From the NCBI RefSeq assembly GCF_000626635.1, contig NZ_CP007451.1, positions 3,702,501 through 3,766,500 on the forward strand: a stretch of 64,000 bases of DNA, written 5' to 3'. A program made the translations under genes and the position numbers. Within the stretch, counting starts at the first letter, position 1, and the number at the start of each line of letters is the position of its first letter. Of the stretch, positions 24,007 through 47,035 are shown one piece after another. This stretch comes from Draconibacterium orientale. Its GTDB lineage: Bacteria; Bacteroidota; Bacteroidia; Bacteroidales; Prolixibacteraceae. The notes under the pieces were generated by a model that was given only the letters and a program-made list of their open reading frames with translations, did not search any database and had not been told where the DNA came from.

Positions 24007-24999
24007 ATGAAGGAAGAATTATTGTTGCATATTTTAACCGGAGAGGCAAGCCCAGATGAAAAAAAGCAATTTTACAGTCATCTTGCCGAAAGCAAAGAGA
24101 ATGAAGAGTTGTATTTTCAGGTAAAAAGCCTTTGGTTAAGAACTTCGATGAAACATACCCGGATAGATACAAATTCGGAATTCAACAGGTTGTGGGAGAA
24201 AATAACCGAACAGAAAAGAACGAGGATAATATCTCTGATAAGCAAGTTCGCACGTTATGCAGCTATTCTTGTTTTTGTTTTAACACTTGGCGGTGTAATC
24301 GGATATTTTATAAATAACAACAATCCCGGGGTAAGCTATTCTGGTGTACAAAAATACACAGCAATGCGTGGAAGCGTTAGTGTTGTAGAACTGGACGACG
24401 GGACAAAGATCTGGCTGAATTCAGAGTCGGAATTATCCTATTATCAGGATGCGGAGAAAATGCAACGTTGTGCCGATTTAAAAGGTGAAGCCTTTTTCGA
24501 GATCGCACATAACGAAGAAATGCCTTTTGTGGTAAATGTTGGAAATATTATCGTTCGCGATTTGGGTACCGTTTTTAATATAAAAGCTTACGCCGAAGAT
24601 AACATTGTTGAAACCTCTCTTGTTGAAGGGAAAGCCGAAATTTTAAGTTCGGGGAGCAAGCAGTTACTTGAATTGAATCCCGGAGAAAGTGCTCTGTATT
24701 TTACCAATGAGAATAGAATTGAAGTACGGTCAATCGAAAATAATGTGCTTTCGGCATGGCGCGATGGTAAATTTGTAATCCGCAACGAACGCCTTGAAGA
24801 TATTTGTAAGGAACTGGGACGCTGGTATGGAGTTGAATTTCAATTTGAAAACAAGGAGCTGTTGGATTACCGGTTTACCGGAAACATAAAAAAATCGACT
24901 ACAGTACAACATGTGTTGAAGGTGCTAAAAACAAGTTCCGGATTTAATTACCGCATAATAGAAAACATCGAAAAACCCGATTTAATAATAGTTTATTAG
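24007..24999 (+). CDS. FecR-type anti-sigma factor (first locus)
   Basis: A protein of 330 residues; ATG 24007 is preferred to a TTG at 24001. The cytoplasmic N-terminal part (about 1-75) would hold the sigma factor. A single transmembrane helix follows (about 78-98, YAAILVFVLTLGGVIGYFI), then a periplasmic FecR domain with TAMRGSVSVVELDDGTKIWLNSESEL and VGNIIVRDLGTVFNIKAY. The C-terminal DUF4974-type domain (about 250-330) contains RLEDICKELGRWYGVEFQF and FTGNIKKSTTVQHVLKVL and is expected to contact the STN domain of the SusC encoded next. Confidence 0.94.
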   Translation: MKEELLLHILTGEASPDEKKQFYSHLAESKENEELYFQVKSLWLRTSMKHTRIDTNSEFNRLWEKITEQKRTRIISLISKFARYAAILVFVLTLGGVIGYFINNNNPGVSYSGVQKYTAMRGSVSVVELDDGTKIWLNSESELSYYQDAEKMQRCADLKGEAFFEIAHNEEMPFVVNVGNIIVRDLGTVFNIKAYAEDNIVETSLVEGKAEILSSGSKQLLELNPGESALYFTNENRIEVRSIENNVLSAWRDGKFVIRNERLEDICKELGRWYGVEFQFENKELLDYRFTGNIKKSTTVQHVLKVLKTSSGFNYRIIENIEKPDLIIVY

Positions 25000-25071
25000 T
25001 TAGGAGAGAAAAGGAGACAGGTATTAATTAAAACAGATTTGCCTATGAAATAAACCTAAGAAAATAACATT

Positions 25072-25100
25072 AAAAAAACCGGGACAAATAAATCTCCCGG
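25072..25100 (-). terminator. Minus-strand intrinsic terminator of the predicted antisense RNA
   Basis: CCGGGA (25079-25084) pairs with TCCCGG (25095-25100) around ten bases. Read on the minus strand, the stem is followed at once by seven T. On the plus strand the nearest T-run (25106-25110) is five bases away, so any termination of fecR transcripts would be weaker. Confidence 0.65.
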
Positions 25101-25121
25101 CTCCGTTTTTGAAATCTTTAT

Positions 25122-25149
25122 GGTTCAGATAATTGGCCTTATCTGAACC
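25122..25149. repeat. 11-bp perfect inverted repeat before susC
   Basis: GGTTCAGATAA (25122-25132) is perfectly complementary to TTATCTGAACC (25139-25149) around TTGGCC. It would form a stable hairpin both in the susC leader and in the predicted antisense RNA, giving complementary loops suited to a kissing contact. Confidence 0.7.
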
Positions 25150-25169
25150 TCGTTATAACAAAATCAAAT

Positions 25170-25177
25170 CAAAAGTA
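25170..25177 (-). promoter_or_regulatory. Candidate antisense promoter overlapping the susC start codon
   Basis: The plus strand reads CAAAAGTA, that is TACTTTTG on the minus strand, an exact TAnnTTTG. Its last base is the A of the susC ATG. The same register occurs at 43450-43457. Confidence 0.55.
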
Positions 25178-41436: not shown

Positions 41437-42033
41437 ATGGAGGAAAAGGCGGATCTATATCTATGGGAAAACCTTCTAAATGGTGATAATAATGCCTTGT
41501 CGGATATTTATAAAAGGTATGTTGACGATTTATACTCCTATGGTCTGAAAATATCGGGAAACGAATCTCTGGTGAAAGACTGTATTCAGGAGGTTTTTAT
41601 TCGTTTGATGGCAAACCGGAAAAACCTGGTTGCCGGTTCTAATATACACGTTTACCTATTCAAATCGCTTCGGAGCAGGTTATTGGATGAAATGCGGTCG
41701 GGTAACCGAAGATCAGAGATTCTCAATACAAAAACCAGGTTTGAAGAAGAAGAAAACAGTCCGTCGGTTGAAGCAGTTACCATTCAGAACGAAGAACAGT
41801 CACACATTAAAAAGAAGCTGCAAACTGCCCTGGAAGGTTTAACTGAAAAACAACGGGAAATAATTTTTTTAAAATTTACCGAAGGATTAAACTACGACGA
41901 GATTTCAACAATTCTCGGCATCGATAAAGCTTCAGCCCGAACACTTCTTTACCGCACTCTAAAACTAATTAAGGCCAACATTAAAATGAAGGGATTAATC
42001 TTGTTTCTCTTTATGCGGTATTTCAAAAAGTAA
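41437..42033 (+). CDS. ECF-type RNA polymerase sigma factor (second SusC/D regulator)
   Basis: A protein of 198 residues. Region 2 is at about 20-65 (LSDIYKRYVDDLYSYGLKISGNESLVKDCIQEVFIRL) and region 4 at about 125-180 (LEGLTEKQREIIFLKFTEGLNYDEISTILGI, KASARTLLYRTLKLIK). The arrangement sigma, FecR, STN-type SusC, SusD repeats that at 23339-30236, but the two sigma factors are clearly diverged from each other, so they should recognise different promoters and signals. The fecR gene follows 74 bases after the stop. Confidence 0.95.
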   Translation: MEEKADLYLWENLLNGDNNALSDIYKRYVDDLYSYGLKISGNESLVKDCIQEVFIRLMANRKNLVAGSNIHVYLFKSLRSRLLDEMRSGNRRSEILNTKTRFEEEENSPSVEAVTIQNEEQSHIKKKLQTALEGLTEKQREIIFLKFTEGLNYDEISTILGIDKASARTLLYRTLKLIKANIKMKGLILFLFMRYFKK

Positions 42034-42107: not shown

Positions 42108-43313
42108 ATGGAGAATAATTTTTTGAATTCTGAATTTACAGAGCTGATTACCAATGATGATTTTGTTCGTATGGTAAAAGATGCTCAGGACACTGATAAG
42201 TTGTTGAATGACTTGGTAATGCAGTGTCCTCAAAACAGCAATGATTTAAAATATGCTGTTGAATTTATTCGGATTGCCCGTGAGGATAAGCAAAAAATGC
42301 AGACTGCCGATTCGGAACGAATTTTAAAGAATATACAAAACAACCCAGTCGGAAAAGATGGACGTACAATTTTATTTCGTCGTTTGGCAAATAGTAAGGT
42401 TGCTGCTATTGCATTGTTGGTGCTTGCAATTGGAGCACTTGTTATGTTCAGCAAACAAGATTCGCTAAAACAGTTTGCACATAAAAATGAAGTATCTCAG
42501 AACGACGCGATGATTGTTCTTTCCGATGGCTCAAAACACATTCTCAACGAGAATGAACTGGATATTAATTACAACAGCAAGGAAGGTGAAGTTGTGGTTC
42601 AAAAAGAGGAGAGCGTTGTTGCGACAATTAAAAATGAACCAAAAAATAAACGAGAGTTTAACGAGGTAATTGTGCCTTACGGACAACGTCAACATGTTGT
42701 TTTGAATGATGGAACGTCGGTGGAATTAAATGCCGGGAGTAAACTGGTATTTCCTGCGGTATTCTCAGGGAATAACCGAACCGTGTACCTGATTGGAGAG
42801 GGATACTTCGATGTAACAAAAGACAGTAATCGTCCCTTTATTGTAAAAACTGATTTTATTGATGTAAAAGTATACGGAACAGAGTTTAATGTTACCGCAT
42901 ACAAAGATGAAGAACTTGCTTCTGCCGTATTGGTAGAAGGTTCAGTTTCGGTTAAACAAAGCGACAAAATTCTTAAAAAACAGGCACTGTTCATTAAACC
43001 TGGCGAAGCATGTTTTTACTCAACAGTTAACGAAGAACTGGAGATAAAAGACATTGATGTAGACTTATATATTTCGTGGAAAGATGGAATTTACAATTTT
43101 AAAGATGTGCCACTTTCTTATGTAATTACACGGGTGAAGAAATACTACAACGTTGAAATTACGGTTGAGAATGCCGATTTACTGGAGACAAAACTTTCAG
43201 GAAAACTGCTAATCACAGGAGATATTGAAGAAGTGATTCAATATATCTCGAGAGCAGTAGAATGTAGATATGAAAAGCCTAAAGAAGGAAATTATTTTCT
43301 CTCGAAATACTAA
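42108..43313 (+). CDS. FecR-type anti-sigma factor (second locus)
   Basis: A protein of 401 residues, longer than the first FecR. A cytoplasmic sigma-binding part (about 1-92) is followed by a transmembrane helix (about 95-112, VAAIALLVLAIGALVMF). The periplasmic FecR domain carries VIVPYGQRQHVVLNDGTSVELNAGSKL, YLIGEGYFDVTKDSNRPFIV and VKVYGTEFNVTAY. The C-terminal DUF4974-type domain (about 320-400) has FKDVPLSYVITRVKKYYNVEI and LSGKLLITGDIEEVIQYIS. It would bind both the upstream sigma factor and the STN domain of the SusC at 43457. Confidence 0.94.
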   Translation: MENNFLNSEFTELITNDDFVRMVKDAQDTDKLLNDLVMQCPQNSNDLKYAVEFIRIAREDKQKMQTADSERILKNIQNNPVGKDGRTILFRRLANSKVAAIALLVLAIGALVMFSKQDSLKQFAHKNEVSQNDAMIVLSDGSKHILNENELDINYNSKEGEVVVQKEESVVATIKNEPKNKREFNEVIVPYGQRQHVVLNDGTSVELNAGSKLVFPAVFSGNNRTVYLIGEGYFDVTKDSNRPFIVKTDFIDVKVYGTEFNVTAYKDEELASAVLVEGSVSVKQSDKILKKQALFIKPGEACFYSTVNEELEIKDIDVDLYISWKDGIYNFKDVPLSYVITRVKKYYNVEITVENADLLETKLSGKLLITGDIEEVIQYISRAVECRYEKPKEGNYFLSKY

Positions 43314-43374
43314 CTAACTTATTGTCTAACCAAAACTTTATGAATATGACTTAGAACTATCACCAACTTATTTT

Positions 43375-43410
43375 AAAAAAAATCCGGTAGATACTGGCAT
43401 ACCTACCGGA
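43375..43410 (-). terminator. Minus-strand intrinsic terminator of the second predicted antisense RNA
   Basis: TCCGGTAG (43383-43390) is perfectly complementary to CTACCGGA (43403-43410) around twelve bases. Eight A precede it on the plus strand, so the minus strand reads stem then eight T. On the plus strand no T-run follows, so it can only terminate leftward transcription. Confidence 0.72.
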
Positions 43411-43444
43411 AAAGATCGATTAAATCCGTAATACAAATTTTAAT
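43375..43444 (-). ncRNA. Predicted cis-antisense RNA between fecR and susC, second locus (DonS-like)
   Basis: The layout is the same as at 25072-25164. A minus-strand -7 box (TAAATTTG, 43457-43450) ends on the A of the susC ATG. About 70 transcribed bases end in an eight-base-pair stem (43383-43410) followed on the minus strand by eight T (43382-43375). Finding promoter and terminator in the same register at both sigma/FecR loci, with unrelated base sequence between, is the main support. Ends are approximate and expression is not shown. Confidence 0.6.
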
Positions 43445-43449
43445 CAAAA

Positions 43450-43457
43450 CAAATTTA
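43450..43457 (-). promoter_or_regulatory. Candidate antisense promoter overlapping the second susC start codon
   Basis: The plus strand reads CAAATTTA, that is TAAATTTG on the minus strand, an exact TAnnTTTG whose last plus-strand base is the A of the susC ATG, as at 25170-25177. Confidence 0.55.
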
Positions 43458-46400
43458 TGAAAAAAAACTTTTTTCACAGGGATGACTTATGGATTCATCT
43501 CATTAGAACATTTCGCATTATGAAGTTAACATTCTTGTTTAGCCTCATGGCTGTTATAAATACCTTCGCTTCATCTTATTCGTTTGCACAAAACGTAAGA
43601 TTATCAGTGGAGAATATTCCTCTTGTTGATGTACTGCAAGAAATTGAGCAGCAAACTGATTATGTATTTTTGTACAAAAATGACCTTATTGATCCTGAAT
43701 TTAAAGTTAGTGTTGACGTTGAAGGACAAGACGTTGAGGTGATTTTGAATGAAGTATTTAAATCAACAGAGATTAAGTACGAGATACTGAAAAAGCAAAT
43801 TATTTTAACTCCAAATAAAAAAGTTAAAGATGAGCCTGCTGTAGGAGGAAGTGTAAAAGTGGCTCCGCAAAAAAAGCTTACCGGAAAGGTTACCGACGAA
43901 GATGGTGTACCAATTCCGGGGGTTACTGTTGTTGTAAAAGGAACGACTATTGGTACAGTTACCGATTTTGACGGAAACTATATGCTGGATGTTCCGCAGG
44001 ATGCACAGGTATTGTTGGTTTCGTTTGTAGGGTACAATACCCAGGAAATTACACTGAGTTCTGAAGTAAACATTAACATCGTATTACACGAAAGACTTGA
44101 AGAGCTGGACGAGGTTGTAGTTGTTGGTTATGGTAAACAAAACAAAGAATCGGTAACAGCTGCAATCTCAAGTGTTGAAGCAAAAGATCTTGTACAATCG
44201 CCAACTGCCAACATTAGTAATGCTTTGGCAGGTCGTTTATCGGGTCTTACATCTATTCAGTTATCAGGAAAACCGGGATCAGATGATGCCGATCTTTATG
44301 TACGTGGTATTGGTACTTATGCCGGATCAACTGCACCACTTATTATGGTTGACGGTGTTGCGCGCGATAGTTATAACAATATTGACCCTAATGAAATCGA
44401 ATCAATCAGCATCCTGAAAGATGCTTCGGCAACAGCTGTTTTTGGTGTGCGTGGTGCAAACGGTGTAATCCTTATTACTACAAGAAGGGGACAGCAGGGG
44501 GCTCCTCGTGTTAGTGTTTCGGCACAAACTGCAATTGTTGAATTTACCCGTTTACCGGAATATCTTGATGCGTATGATTGGACAAGTTTGTTCAACGAAA
44601 AATCATACCAGGACTACTGGAGAAAGCATGGTAATGATGGATGGGACTCATGGGCAGAATTTGCTGAAAGTCGAGAAGCCAACTGGATTTCAGAAGCTTC
44701 CCGATATACTTCAGATGAGGAGTTGATGTATTATAAAAATGCAAACAATCCACAAAGCGAGTATTACAATCCATATTTCTATCCCAATACCGACTGGCAA
44801 AGTCAGATTTTCAGAAAATCATCACGACAAAGCCAGTATAACGTAAATGTTGAGGGTGGTACAGAAAAGGTAAAATATTTTGTATCGTTAGGTTTTCTTG
44901 ATCAAGGTGGTATGTTCCAGGATTCGTATTTTCCGTTTCCCGATGAAATGGATTACACGAAAAAGCGACATAACTTTCGTGCCAACTTCGACTTTGATGT
45001 AAATAAAGATTTCCGGATCTCGGTTGACATTGGTACCAACTTCGAGAAAATTACAGGAATGAATAATGATAGCTACATGTGGAACAAACGAATTTTGTGG
45101 GCTAACCCGATTTCGTCTCCCGGACTTGTTGATGGTAAATTTGTAGTTATTGAAGGACAAGAGCTTTCGGCAAATAACTTGCTTTACGAAATTGCCAACA
45201 TTGATTTTAATGTTACCAATAACAGTACACTTAATTCATCGGTAAAGTTATCGCACAAACTCGATTTTATTACAGAAGGACTTTCTGTAAATGCCCGTGT
45301 TGCTTACGATAGCTATTTCTCAAGCCGGTCGGGTGGTGGTAGCTACACGCCAATGTTGTATCGTATTTCTCCTAACGAAAACGGAGATAAGCTGGATCCA
45401 AACTTTGAACCTTTAACTGAAAAATCGTCACTTTCATACTGGTCGGAATGGTACAATGGGAAATGGCGTAAAATCTATGGAGAGTTTTCGTTGAACTACA
45501 ACCAAAGTTTTGGCCAGCACGATGTGGGCGGTTTGTTCCTGTTTAACGCAGAAAAGAAATATGATCCGGGTTTGGATTACCAATTGCCTCATGCCTACTT
45601 AGGTTTGGTTGGTCGTGTTACTTATGGTTTTGCAAAAAGATACCTGGCCGAGTTTAACATGGGATACAACGGTTCGGAAAACTTTCCCGAAGGAAAACGT
45701 TTTGGTTTCTTGCCGGCGGTTTCTTTAGGATGGGTTTCATCAGCCGAAAGTTTCTTCCCTGAGACCGGTCTGATTGGATATTTAAAAATTCGTGGTTCTA
45801 TCGGTAAAGTTGGTAACGATAATGTTGGTGGAGCAAGGTACTTATATTTACCTGACGTATGGGAATACAGTGGTGGCTATACTTTTGGCGATTACAACAG
45901 CAGAAGTTATGTAAATGGTGCTATTGAAGGTACAATTGGTAACCCGAATGTAACCTGGGAAACGGCAACAAAAGCAAACATTGGTTTTGAAGCACGTTTG
46001 TTTGGCGACAAACTGTCGTTAACCTACGATTATTTTAAAGAAAACAGAAAGGATATCCTTTCGTACAAAGGAACCATTCCCGATATCGTTCAGGCATCGC
46101 TGCCCGCTTATAACTTAGGTAAAGTTAAAAACTGGGGTAACGAAGTAGAATTTACATGGCGAGACAATATCCGTCAGGTAAATTACTGGGTTAAAGGAAA
46201 TGCTTCAACCAACAAAAACGAAATTGTTTTTAGAGATGAAGCTATTACTCCGGGGCTTGAATACCAGGCACAAACCGGCCGTCCGATTAACCAGCCTTCA
46301 TACCTGCAGGCCGATGGTTTATACAACTCGTGGGCCGATCTGTATGAAATCGATTCGGAAGGAAATCCGGTTCTTTCGTCTCCTGTATTAGCAGTAAACG

Positions 46401-47035
46401 CTGCCGGCGAAACTTATACCAATACTGCCGGCGAACCGGTTTACCAAAAAGATTTAGGTTTTGGAGGTGCTGTTTTGCAGCCTGGTGAAATAAAACTGAT
46501 CGACGTTAACGAAGACGGTGTTATTGATGGTAAAGACTATAAGCGTAGTGGAAAAACAAATATTCCTGAGTTAACTTATGGATTCTCAATGGGATTTGAA
46601 TATAAAAGTTTCGACTTCTCGCTAATGTTCCAGGGGGTTTCTGGTGTTGCACGCTTCGTTCAAACAGGTGAATCAATGCACTTTTCAGATAACCACTCGT
46701 TACAGGAAGTTGATATATACCGCTTTACCGAAGAAAGATATGCAGCTGGAGAACGTATAGAAATGCCCATTGCTGCCTACAACACTTCAGCAGTTTACAA
46801 TACATTCTTTCATAAAGATGCATCATACTTGCGTCTGAAAAATATGGAGATAGGTTATAGCATTTCTCCGGGAATATTAAAAAGAATCGGACTTACTTCA
46901 ACTCGTTTTTATGTTAACGGTTCGAACTTGCTAACCTGGAGTAACAACAAGGTATGGGGCGATCCTGAGAATTTAGGTAATTCCGGTTATCCGATTACCC
47001 GGACGTACAACCTGGGAGTTAACCTCAATTTTTAA
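43457..47035 (+). CDS. STN-containing SusC-family transporter (second sigma/FecR locus)
   Basis: A protein of 1192 residues with a long signal region ending near SYSFAQ. An STN domain (about 48-120, RLSVENIPLVDVLQEIEQQ, YEILKKQIILTP) is followed by a CarboxypepD_reg-like domain (about 138-220, GKVTDEDGVPIPGVTVVVKG), EEVVVVGYG, a plug (YVRGIGTYAG, SISILKDASATAVFGVRG) and a beta-barrel ending in YNLGVNLNF. The STN domain implies signalling to the FecR upstream. It is the first of two SusC genes in this unit; its own SusD follows 21 bases after the stop. Confidence 0.96.
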   Translation: MKKNFFHRDDLWIHLIRTFRIMKLTFLFSLMAVINTFASSYSFAQNVRLSVENIPLVDVLQEIEQQTDYVFLYKNDLIDPEFKVSVDVEGQDVEVILNEVFKSTEIKYEILKKQIILTPNKKVKDEPAVGGSVKVAPQKKLTGKVTDEDGVPIPGVTVVVKGTTIGTVTDFDGNYMLDVPQDAQVLLVSFVGYNTQEITLSSEVNINIVLHERLEELDEVVVVGYGKQNKESVTAAISSVEAKDLVQSPTANISNALAGRLSGLTSIQLSGKPGSDDADLYVRGIGTYAGSTAPLIMVDGVARDSYNNIDPNEIESISILKDASATAVFGVRGANGVILITTRRGQQGAPRVSVSAQTAIVEFTRLPEYLDAYDWTSLFNEKSYQDYWRKHGNDGWDSWAEFAESREANWISEASRYTSDEELMYYKNANNPQSEYYNPYFYPNTDWQSQIFRKSSRQSQYNVNVEGGTEKVKYFVSLGFLDQGGMFQDSYFPFPDEMDYTKKRHNFRANFDFDVNKDFRISVDIGTNFEKITGMNNDSYMWNKRILWANPISSPGLVDGKFVVIEGQELSANNLLYEIANIDFNVTNNSTLNSSVKLSHKLDFITEGLSVNARVAYDSYFSSRSGGGSYTPMLYRISPNENGDKLDPNFEPLTEKSSLSYWSEWYNGKWRKIYGEFSLNYNQSFGQHDVGGLFLFNAEKKYDPGLDYQLPHAYLGLVGRVTYGFAKRYLAEFNMGYNGSENFPEGKRFGFLPAVSLGWVSSAESFFPETGLIGYLKIRGSIGKVGNDNVGGARYLYLPDVWEYSGGYTFGDYNSRSYVNGAIEGTIGNPNVTWETATKANIGFEARLFGDKLSLTYDYFKENRKDILSYKGTIPDIVQASLPAYNLGKVKNWGNEVEFTWRDNIRQVNYWVKGNASTNKNEIVFRDEAITPGLEYQAQTGRPINQPSYLQADGLYNSWADLYEIDSEGNPVLSSPVLAVNAAGETYTNTAGEPVYQKDLGFGGAVLQPGEIKLIDVNEDGVIDGKDYKRSGKTNIPELTYGFSMGFEYKSFDFSLMFQGVSGVARFVQTGESMHFSDNHSLQEVDIYRFTEERYAAGERIEMPIAAYNTSAVYNTFFHKDASYLRLKNMEIGYSISPGILKRIGLTSTRFYVNGSNLLTWSNNKVWGDPENLGNSGYPITRTYNLGVNLNF

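Follow-up and report, generated by a model that had tools for sequence, protein, structure and literature searches.

A probable DonS-type antisense RNA gene opposite the start of a FecR-linked susC in Draconibacterium orientale

The window analysed here is a 64,000-base stretch of Draconibacterium orientale DNA, corresponding to positions 3702501-3766500 of the 5.13-Mb genome. On its plus strand, an ECF sigma factor gene (41437-42033; Pfam Sigma70_r2 and Sigma70_r4_2) and a FecR anti-sigma factor gene (42108-43313; Pfam FecR, 4.8e-16, and FecR_C, 2.3e-11) are followed, after a gap of 143 bases, by susC (43457-47035). The latter encodes a TonB-dependent transporter with matches to Pfam Plug, TonB_dep_Rec_b-barrel and TIGR04057, and a weak STN match below its cut-off, and would be the target of the RNA proposed here.

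At the susC start the plus strand reads CAAATTTATG, with the A of the ATG at 43457. Read on the minus strand from 43457 to 43450, this gives TAAATTTG, a putative -7 promoter box whose register is conserved across the junction sets described below. Its first T lies opposite the A of the ATG, and direct reading bears out the earlier note, which had the box ending precisely on that base. Nearer to fecR, the plus strand consists of A8 at 43375-43382, TCCGGTAG at 43383-43390 and CTACCGGA at 43403-43410, followed after 43410 by AAAAGATC, which contains no T-run. The minus strand thus has a hairpin (43383-43410) with a stem of eight perfect pairs, or 12 counting G-U pairs, and then T8 (43375-43382), a predicted intrinsic terminator. 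The 8-bp stem with its eight T had been noticed correctly, but its distance of "about 65 bases" from the box was loosely given, as the stem begins 40 bases and the T-run ends 75 bases past the box. A leftward transcript had also been called the only terminator reading; indeed, the plus strand has no T-run, and a terminator scan of 43300-43700 found one terminator against 0.2 expected, on the minus strand only.

From this box, transcription would start at the G five bases further (43445, minus strand), a position deduced from the C at -12 of susC. The predicted antisense RNA of 71 nt (43375-43445, minus strand) is complementary to susC bases -12 to -82 and folds into a 5' hairpin (43418-43445) and the terminator hairpin, with -24.2 kcal/mol and a z-score of -6.2, against -2.0 for the plus-strand stretch 43350-43470 over it. 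The terminator loop reads TGCCAG on the minus and CTGGCA on the plus strand. At gathering score, Rfam had no match in the window, hits at the junction itself staying at chance level (smallest E-value 0.22; 15.2 bits, with the gathering score at 76), and across 16 loci with such junctions it matched only a tRNA, elsewhere in locus L249. The best protein-level orthologue of this SusC reaches only 44% identity, so that the covariation analysis below draws on other junctions.

A second fecR-susC junction in the window (24999-25177) has the same layout. Its -7 box TACTTTTG (25170-25177, minus strand) stands in the identical register, as had been claimed for the two loci, with a stem at 25079-25100 and a T7; the predicted antisense RNA of 95 nt (25071-25165, minus strand) folds with -33.7 kcal/mol and a z-score of -5.5. 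This hairpin also scored as a rightward terminator under a looser rule. Separately, at 25041-25047 and at the fecR end of many junctions, the plus strand carries TGCCTATG(a/t)AA..TAAAC upstream of the terminator, with exact GCCTATG in 17 of 61 junctions against 0.1 expected from base shuffles; this element may be a mini-ORF of the start-stop type, or else the ECF promoter from which susC is read in sense.

For comparison, a genus set of 100 junctions was drawn from 704 FecR_C matches in 26 genomes; 29 were taken as returned by the search, 60 were picked among the matches listed and 11 came from the D. orientale genome itself. Removal of 29 near-duplicates left 71 non-redundant junctions. The locus L068, a duplicate of the window's other locus, was excluded, a control from 14 genomes of the family was left out, and junctions whose downstream gene is not susC were counted as misses. 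A scan of fecR-susC junctions, proposed in the earlier note for this genome and here made on the genus set, found CAAAnnT directly before the ATG in 64 of the 100 (43 of the 71 non-redundant ones) and [CT]AAAnnT in 83 (57 of the 71), with leftward terminators, by a strict rule, upstream in 27 of the 71. By comparison, [CT]AAAnnT was present at none of 29 other susC starts of the D. orientale genome, genes defined by the lack of a FecR_C neighbour and not by a demonstrated hybrid regulator; here L034 was excluded since its start was not found, and L038, perhaps formerly FecR-linked, was retained. Among 237 starts of ORFs of at least 200 codons within 400 kb of the D. orientale genome, CAAAnnT did not occur and [CT]AAAnnT occurred once (Fisher's p 2e-47 against genes, 6e-15 against other susC). 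The register of the box is therefore more than chance, as had been argued from its two occurrences, and the equal frequency before unrelated genes that would have spoken against the antisense reading was not found.

The word CAAANNTATGAARAA has nine matches in the D. orientale genome, six of which are FecR-susC starts by cross-checked positions; the other three precede a 387-residue protein with a signal-peptide-like start, a 20-codon ORF and a 6-codon ORF. Counted by hand, six of the 11 junctions of this genome have the box; by rule, five do, the start rule having taken an upstream ATG at L008, where no box was scored and the next ATG has one. In a phylum-wide exact search, CAAANNTATGAAAAAAA matched in 18 of 148 genomes; outside the D. 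orientale genome there were 24 matches against 11 for a backward control, whatever the neighbouring gene, a weak enrichment of the strict word. As an observation apart, the start motif with an A-run and hairpin stands near 1335225 of the same genome (L093) before a 20-codon ORF, with neither susC nor FecR adjoining and with what we take to be a lepA-like frame downstream; it may be a stray or reflect another role of the module. At L038 (625900-629500), no FecR_C neighbour accompanies a susC that has a similar hairpin and shares the N-terminal leader, and the ORF upstream on the opposite strand presumably resembles an IS1595-type transposase, as if an insertion had separated this susC from its fecR.

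The bases next to the start codon were compared as well. C stands at -7 in 66% of FecR-susC starts versus 7% of other susC starts, and at -12 in 54% of the 71 non-redundant ones versus 3% of the 29 others, while ordinary starts are A-rich at -12 (A in 65% of the 237 ORFs). Both C depart from the A-rich context and correspond on the minus strand to the G of TTTG and to the probable starting G. The T at -1 is frequent at other susC starts too (76%), so that part of the box may serve translation. A -33 TTG on the minus strand, sought at several spacings, was not enriched in three junction sets: CAA at +17 to +25 was found in 2 of 57 box-bearing junctions of the genus, 5 of 31 of the phylum and 3 of 12 of Bacteroides, a frequency similar to that of regions lying further downstream. 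With no -33 element visible in any set, a promoter here would depend on the -7 box and the T-rich sequence around it.

The terminators of these junctions point predominantly in one direction. Under a perfect-stem rule, the 71 genus junctions have 23 leftward terminators against 0.4 expected from shuffles and two rightward ones against 0.2, one of the two being at the window's other locus; the 29 other susC leaders have none leftward and one rightward. A stricter rule gave 27 leftward and no rightward terminators in the 71, with predicted antisense RNAs of 59-150 nt. Under this rule, rightward terminators were also lacking from the phylum set (76 junctions), the order set (24) and the Bacteroides set (30). 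Of the 71 genus junctions, 10 are without a folded terminator. Folding also reveals the strand, because G-U pairs on one strand are A-C mismatches on the other. In 63 of the 69 junctions folded from the genus set, the minus strand gave the more stable structure (p 4e-13); in the phylum set it did so in 30 of 30 with and 23 of 32 without the box, as compared with 18 of 29 control susC leaders, which is not significant. Stems of at least 10 bp occur on the minus strand in 43 junctions with 53 G-U pairs and on the plus strand in 13 with seven. In nine orthologue groups from other junctions, chosen by eye from the protein starts, the helices are kept: two-sided changes were found in 18 of 240 consensus pairs, and 36 of 1075 cells do not pair, with structures derived from the same alignments and without a shuffled control. 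Box and terminator are not significantly associated inside the genus (24 of 57 versus 3 of 14, p 0.22); outside it they are, both in the phylum set (17 of 31 versus 10 of 45, p 0.007) and among the junctions of the order (4 of 9 versus 0 of 15, p 0.012). Terminator polarity and fold polarity together point to a leftward RNA, and on this sequence evidence the minus strand ahead of susC very probably makes a short antisense RNA.

We also examined the loops of the terminator hairpins, normalised by opening end pairs until at least 6 nt were unpaired. Loops of 6 or 7 nt account for 59 of 61 such hairpins in the genus and 28 of 33 outside it, as compared with 703 of 1337 hairpins of terminator type from other places in the DNA analysed. 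YUNR stands at the start of 48 of the 61 genus loops, on the minus strand in 21 and on the plus strand in 27, whereas loop shuffling predicts 7.3; other hairpins of the same junctions have it in 18 of 44. As the idea arose on the genus loops, the set outside the genus served as the test: 33 of 36 box-bearing junctions there have such a hairpin, and YUNR begins 21 of the 33 loops versus 3.9 expected, four loci of apparently close genera being omitted from this test and included in the terminator and fold sets. Under the strict terminator rule the motif is found in 21 of 27 genus, 13 of 27 phylum (3.4 expected) and two of four order loops, and is thus rarer in the strict phylum set than in the genus. 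Ordinary intergenic terminators have it in 1 of 10 and 3 of 23, and terminator-like hairpins anywhere in 207 of 1337, or 109 of 703 among those with 6-7-nt loops. The junction before the susC at 43457 carries it in its plus-strand loop CTGGCA; the paralogue has YUNR only via an AT-rich loop, which is unconvincing.

In CopA/CopT and similar plasmid antisense RNAs, pairing begins by a YUNR loop-loop contact. Those RNAs control replication, whereas the RNA predicted here would act on a chromosomal outer-membrane transporter. A YUNR U-turn rule for pairing between antisense and target loops, with the motif in a recognition loop of either RNA, has been described (PMC4485353); the loops counted above follow this pattern, and by analogy a loop-loop contact may also open the pairing of the antisense RNA with susC. 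The D. orientale genome has 11 different terminator loops at its 11 junctions, which fits private pairs of RNA and target; the earlier claim that each RNA would act only on its own susC is thus plausible, on loops from this one genome.

Many branches of Bacteroidota show the layout, while some lack it. Excluding loci without a downstream ORF (5 of 29 order and 4 of 80 phylum loci), the box was found in 9 of 24 junctions from elsewhere in the order (all of other genera, one within the same family) and in 31 of 76 junctions of the phylum set, where 27 of 76 have a strict leftward terminator. Its phylum bearers include Chitinophagaceae, Sphingobacteriia, three marine Flavobacteriales genera and Parabacteroides goldsteinii; it is absent from 45 of the 76, including all eight Flavobacterium loci. 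In Bacteroides oleiciplenus and Bacteroides sp. GM023, represented by 30 of 89 FecR_C matches and overlapping there with the phylum set, 13 of 30 FecR junctions have the box, 12 of them as exact TAnnTTTG in the same register, with seven leftward and no rightward terminators and better folding of the minus strand in 21 of 24. Beyond the genus, box-bearing junctions show the C at -12 more weakly, in 10 of 31 of the phylum set and 7 of 12 of the Bacteroides set.

Antisense RNA at susC is already known as a kind, the DonS type in Bacteroides. DonS represents a group of cis-antisense RNAs of 78-128 nt that are divergent to susC homologues of PULs and lower their expression (PMC7366714), and the family (Cao et al. 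2016) is described for Bacteroides fragilis and B. thetaiotaomicron (PMC7366714, PMC10994844, PMC11697453, PMC9723704). For the latter species, ten and later 32 such RNAs were counted, whose correlation with their PULs is negative in some cases and positive in others (PMC10994844); the positive ones count against a reading as repressors. DonS itself is reported to repress its PUL, by a mechanism called unknown in 2025 (PMC11697453). The housekeeping promoter, TAnnTTTG with a -33 TTTG, precedes 52% of the cis-antisense RNAs of B. thetaiotaomicron (PMC7366714), and a paper on Flavobacterium psychrophilum lists antisense RNAs and, for PULs, in the part considered here, only cites the Bacteroides case (PMC9723704).

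Like DonS, the RNA predicted here is short and lies opposite the 5' end of a PUL susC homologue, and the same box in the same register at Bacteroides FecR junctions ties it to the DonS kind. From the sequence, we consider it likely that a small gene on the minus strand of the fecR-susC gap encodes such a cis-antisense RNA, 71 nt long, which probably damps its own susC. There are differences: the genus is another, and the 71 nt predicted here lie below the family's range of 78-128 nt, the 95 nt of the paralogue within it. Of the housekeeping promoter type, the -7 box is present and a -33 element was not found in any set. Expression and repression are reported, in the passages on DonS, for Bacteroides only, whereas the RNA here is predicted from sequence. 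The predicted RNA has its own intrinsic terminator, a feature that those passages do not make family-defining. FopS of B. thetaiotaomicron represses susC translation near the start codon and is a group of trans-encoded paralogues common to many targets (PMC11697453), whereas one cis-encoded RNA per junction is predicted here. The literature surveyed, in which DonS is covered by passages of later papers, mentions neither a start-codon register nor U-turn loops nor cases outside Bacteroides; the fixed register, the occurrence beyond Bacteroides and the YUNR terminator loops are apparently new.

Beside the box, its register, the terminator, the strand polarity and the loop motif, which rest on sequence comparison, we propose a course of events for transcription, start site, pairing route, repression and switching. 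RNA polymerase would start near 43445 from the TAnnTTTG box overlapping the susC start codon, and the RNA would fold into its 5' and terminator hairpins and end in the T8 before fecR. The loop of the terminator hairpin would meet the complementary loop of the susC leader first, a contact aided by a YUNR U-turn in one or the other; pairing would then spread, and the duplex, reaching up to -12, would hinder ribosomes and expose the leader to cleavage. As no strict rightward terminator lies between fecR and susC, susC mRNA made at a low level or by read-through would be silenced by the antisense RNA while the sigma factor is off. Conversely, strong sense transcription across the ATG would interfere with the antisense promoter, so that susC would switch sharply between on and off.

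Alternatively, the antisense promoter might act mainly by transcriptional interference between colliding polymerases, the RNA being a by-product. Such a promoter would indeed lie head-on to susC transcription and within the transcribed region; a by-product, however, would not need strand-biased folding, two-sided pair changes or U-turn loops, and we regard this as rather unlikely. Less probable still, at perhaps an outside chance, is that the conserved CAAAnnTATGAAAAAAA is a translation-start site, or a site for a trans-acting sRNA or RNA-binding protein on the susC mRNA, whose A-richness mimics a -7 box. Start contexts in Bacteroidota are indeed A-rich (PMC7366714), trans-acting FopS RNAs pair with susC start regions in B. 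thetaiotaomicron (PMC11697453), the T at -1 is shared with other susC starts and the -33 element is lacking. Nevertheless, none of the 29 other susC starts has the box and 236 of the 237 gene starts lack it, the C at -7 and -12 contradict the A-rich rule, and leftward terminators and fold polarity would be left unexplained.

That the hairpins act in sense, as a structured susC leader (a stability element or attenuator) without an antisense transcript, is very improbable. The better folding of the minus strand (63 of 69 and 30 of 30), its excess of long stems (43 junctions with 53 G-U pairs versus 13 with seven on plus), the A-run on the wrong side for a sense terminator and the complete lack of strict rightward terminators all speak against it, even though a palindromic hairpin forms in the leader too. 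Chance or functionless pervasive antisense transcription, of which AT-rich genomes are likely to have some (a caution given in PMC7366714), can hardly be credited in view of the gene-start, other-susC, fold and loop controls and of a register, terminator, structure and loop motif conserved in many genomes.

Returning to a DonS-type RNA that pairs with susC, we give about even chances to a broader proposal, namely that in many branches of Bacteroidota sigma/FecR-switched transporters commonly carry a private antisense RNA, with its promoter fixed to the start codon and its terminator serving as a locus-specific U-turn kissing loop, and that these RNAs would form a mutually non-interfering repertoire older and wider than Bacteroides. 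The data suggest that, far outside Bacteroides too, SusC import under sigma/FecR control is often regulated at the RNA level as well. Register, terminator and U-turn loop would together make a sequence signature for predicting such RNAs from bare genomes, and the loop-loop contact offers a concrete model for the action of the DonS kind, testable by compensatory loop changes.

Two minor observations, both made by eye, concern the ends of the sequences discussed. In the L079/L121/L148, L001-type and L066-type orthologue groups, the predicted antisense RNA hardly varies over its first 30-40 bases. The SusC encoded from 43457 (43457-43520) and most of the other FecR-linked ones compared have about 20 extra residues (MKK...) preceding a second in-frame start at the MKLT-like core of the signal peptide; this N-terminal extension may exist because its DNA must also hold the antisense promoter region.
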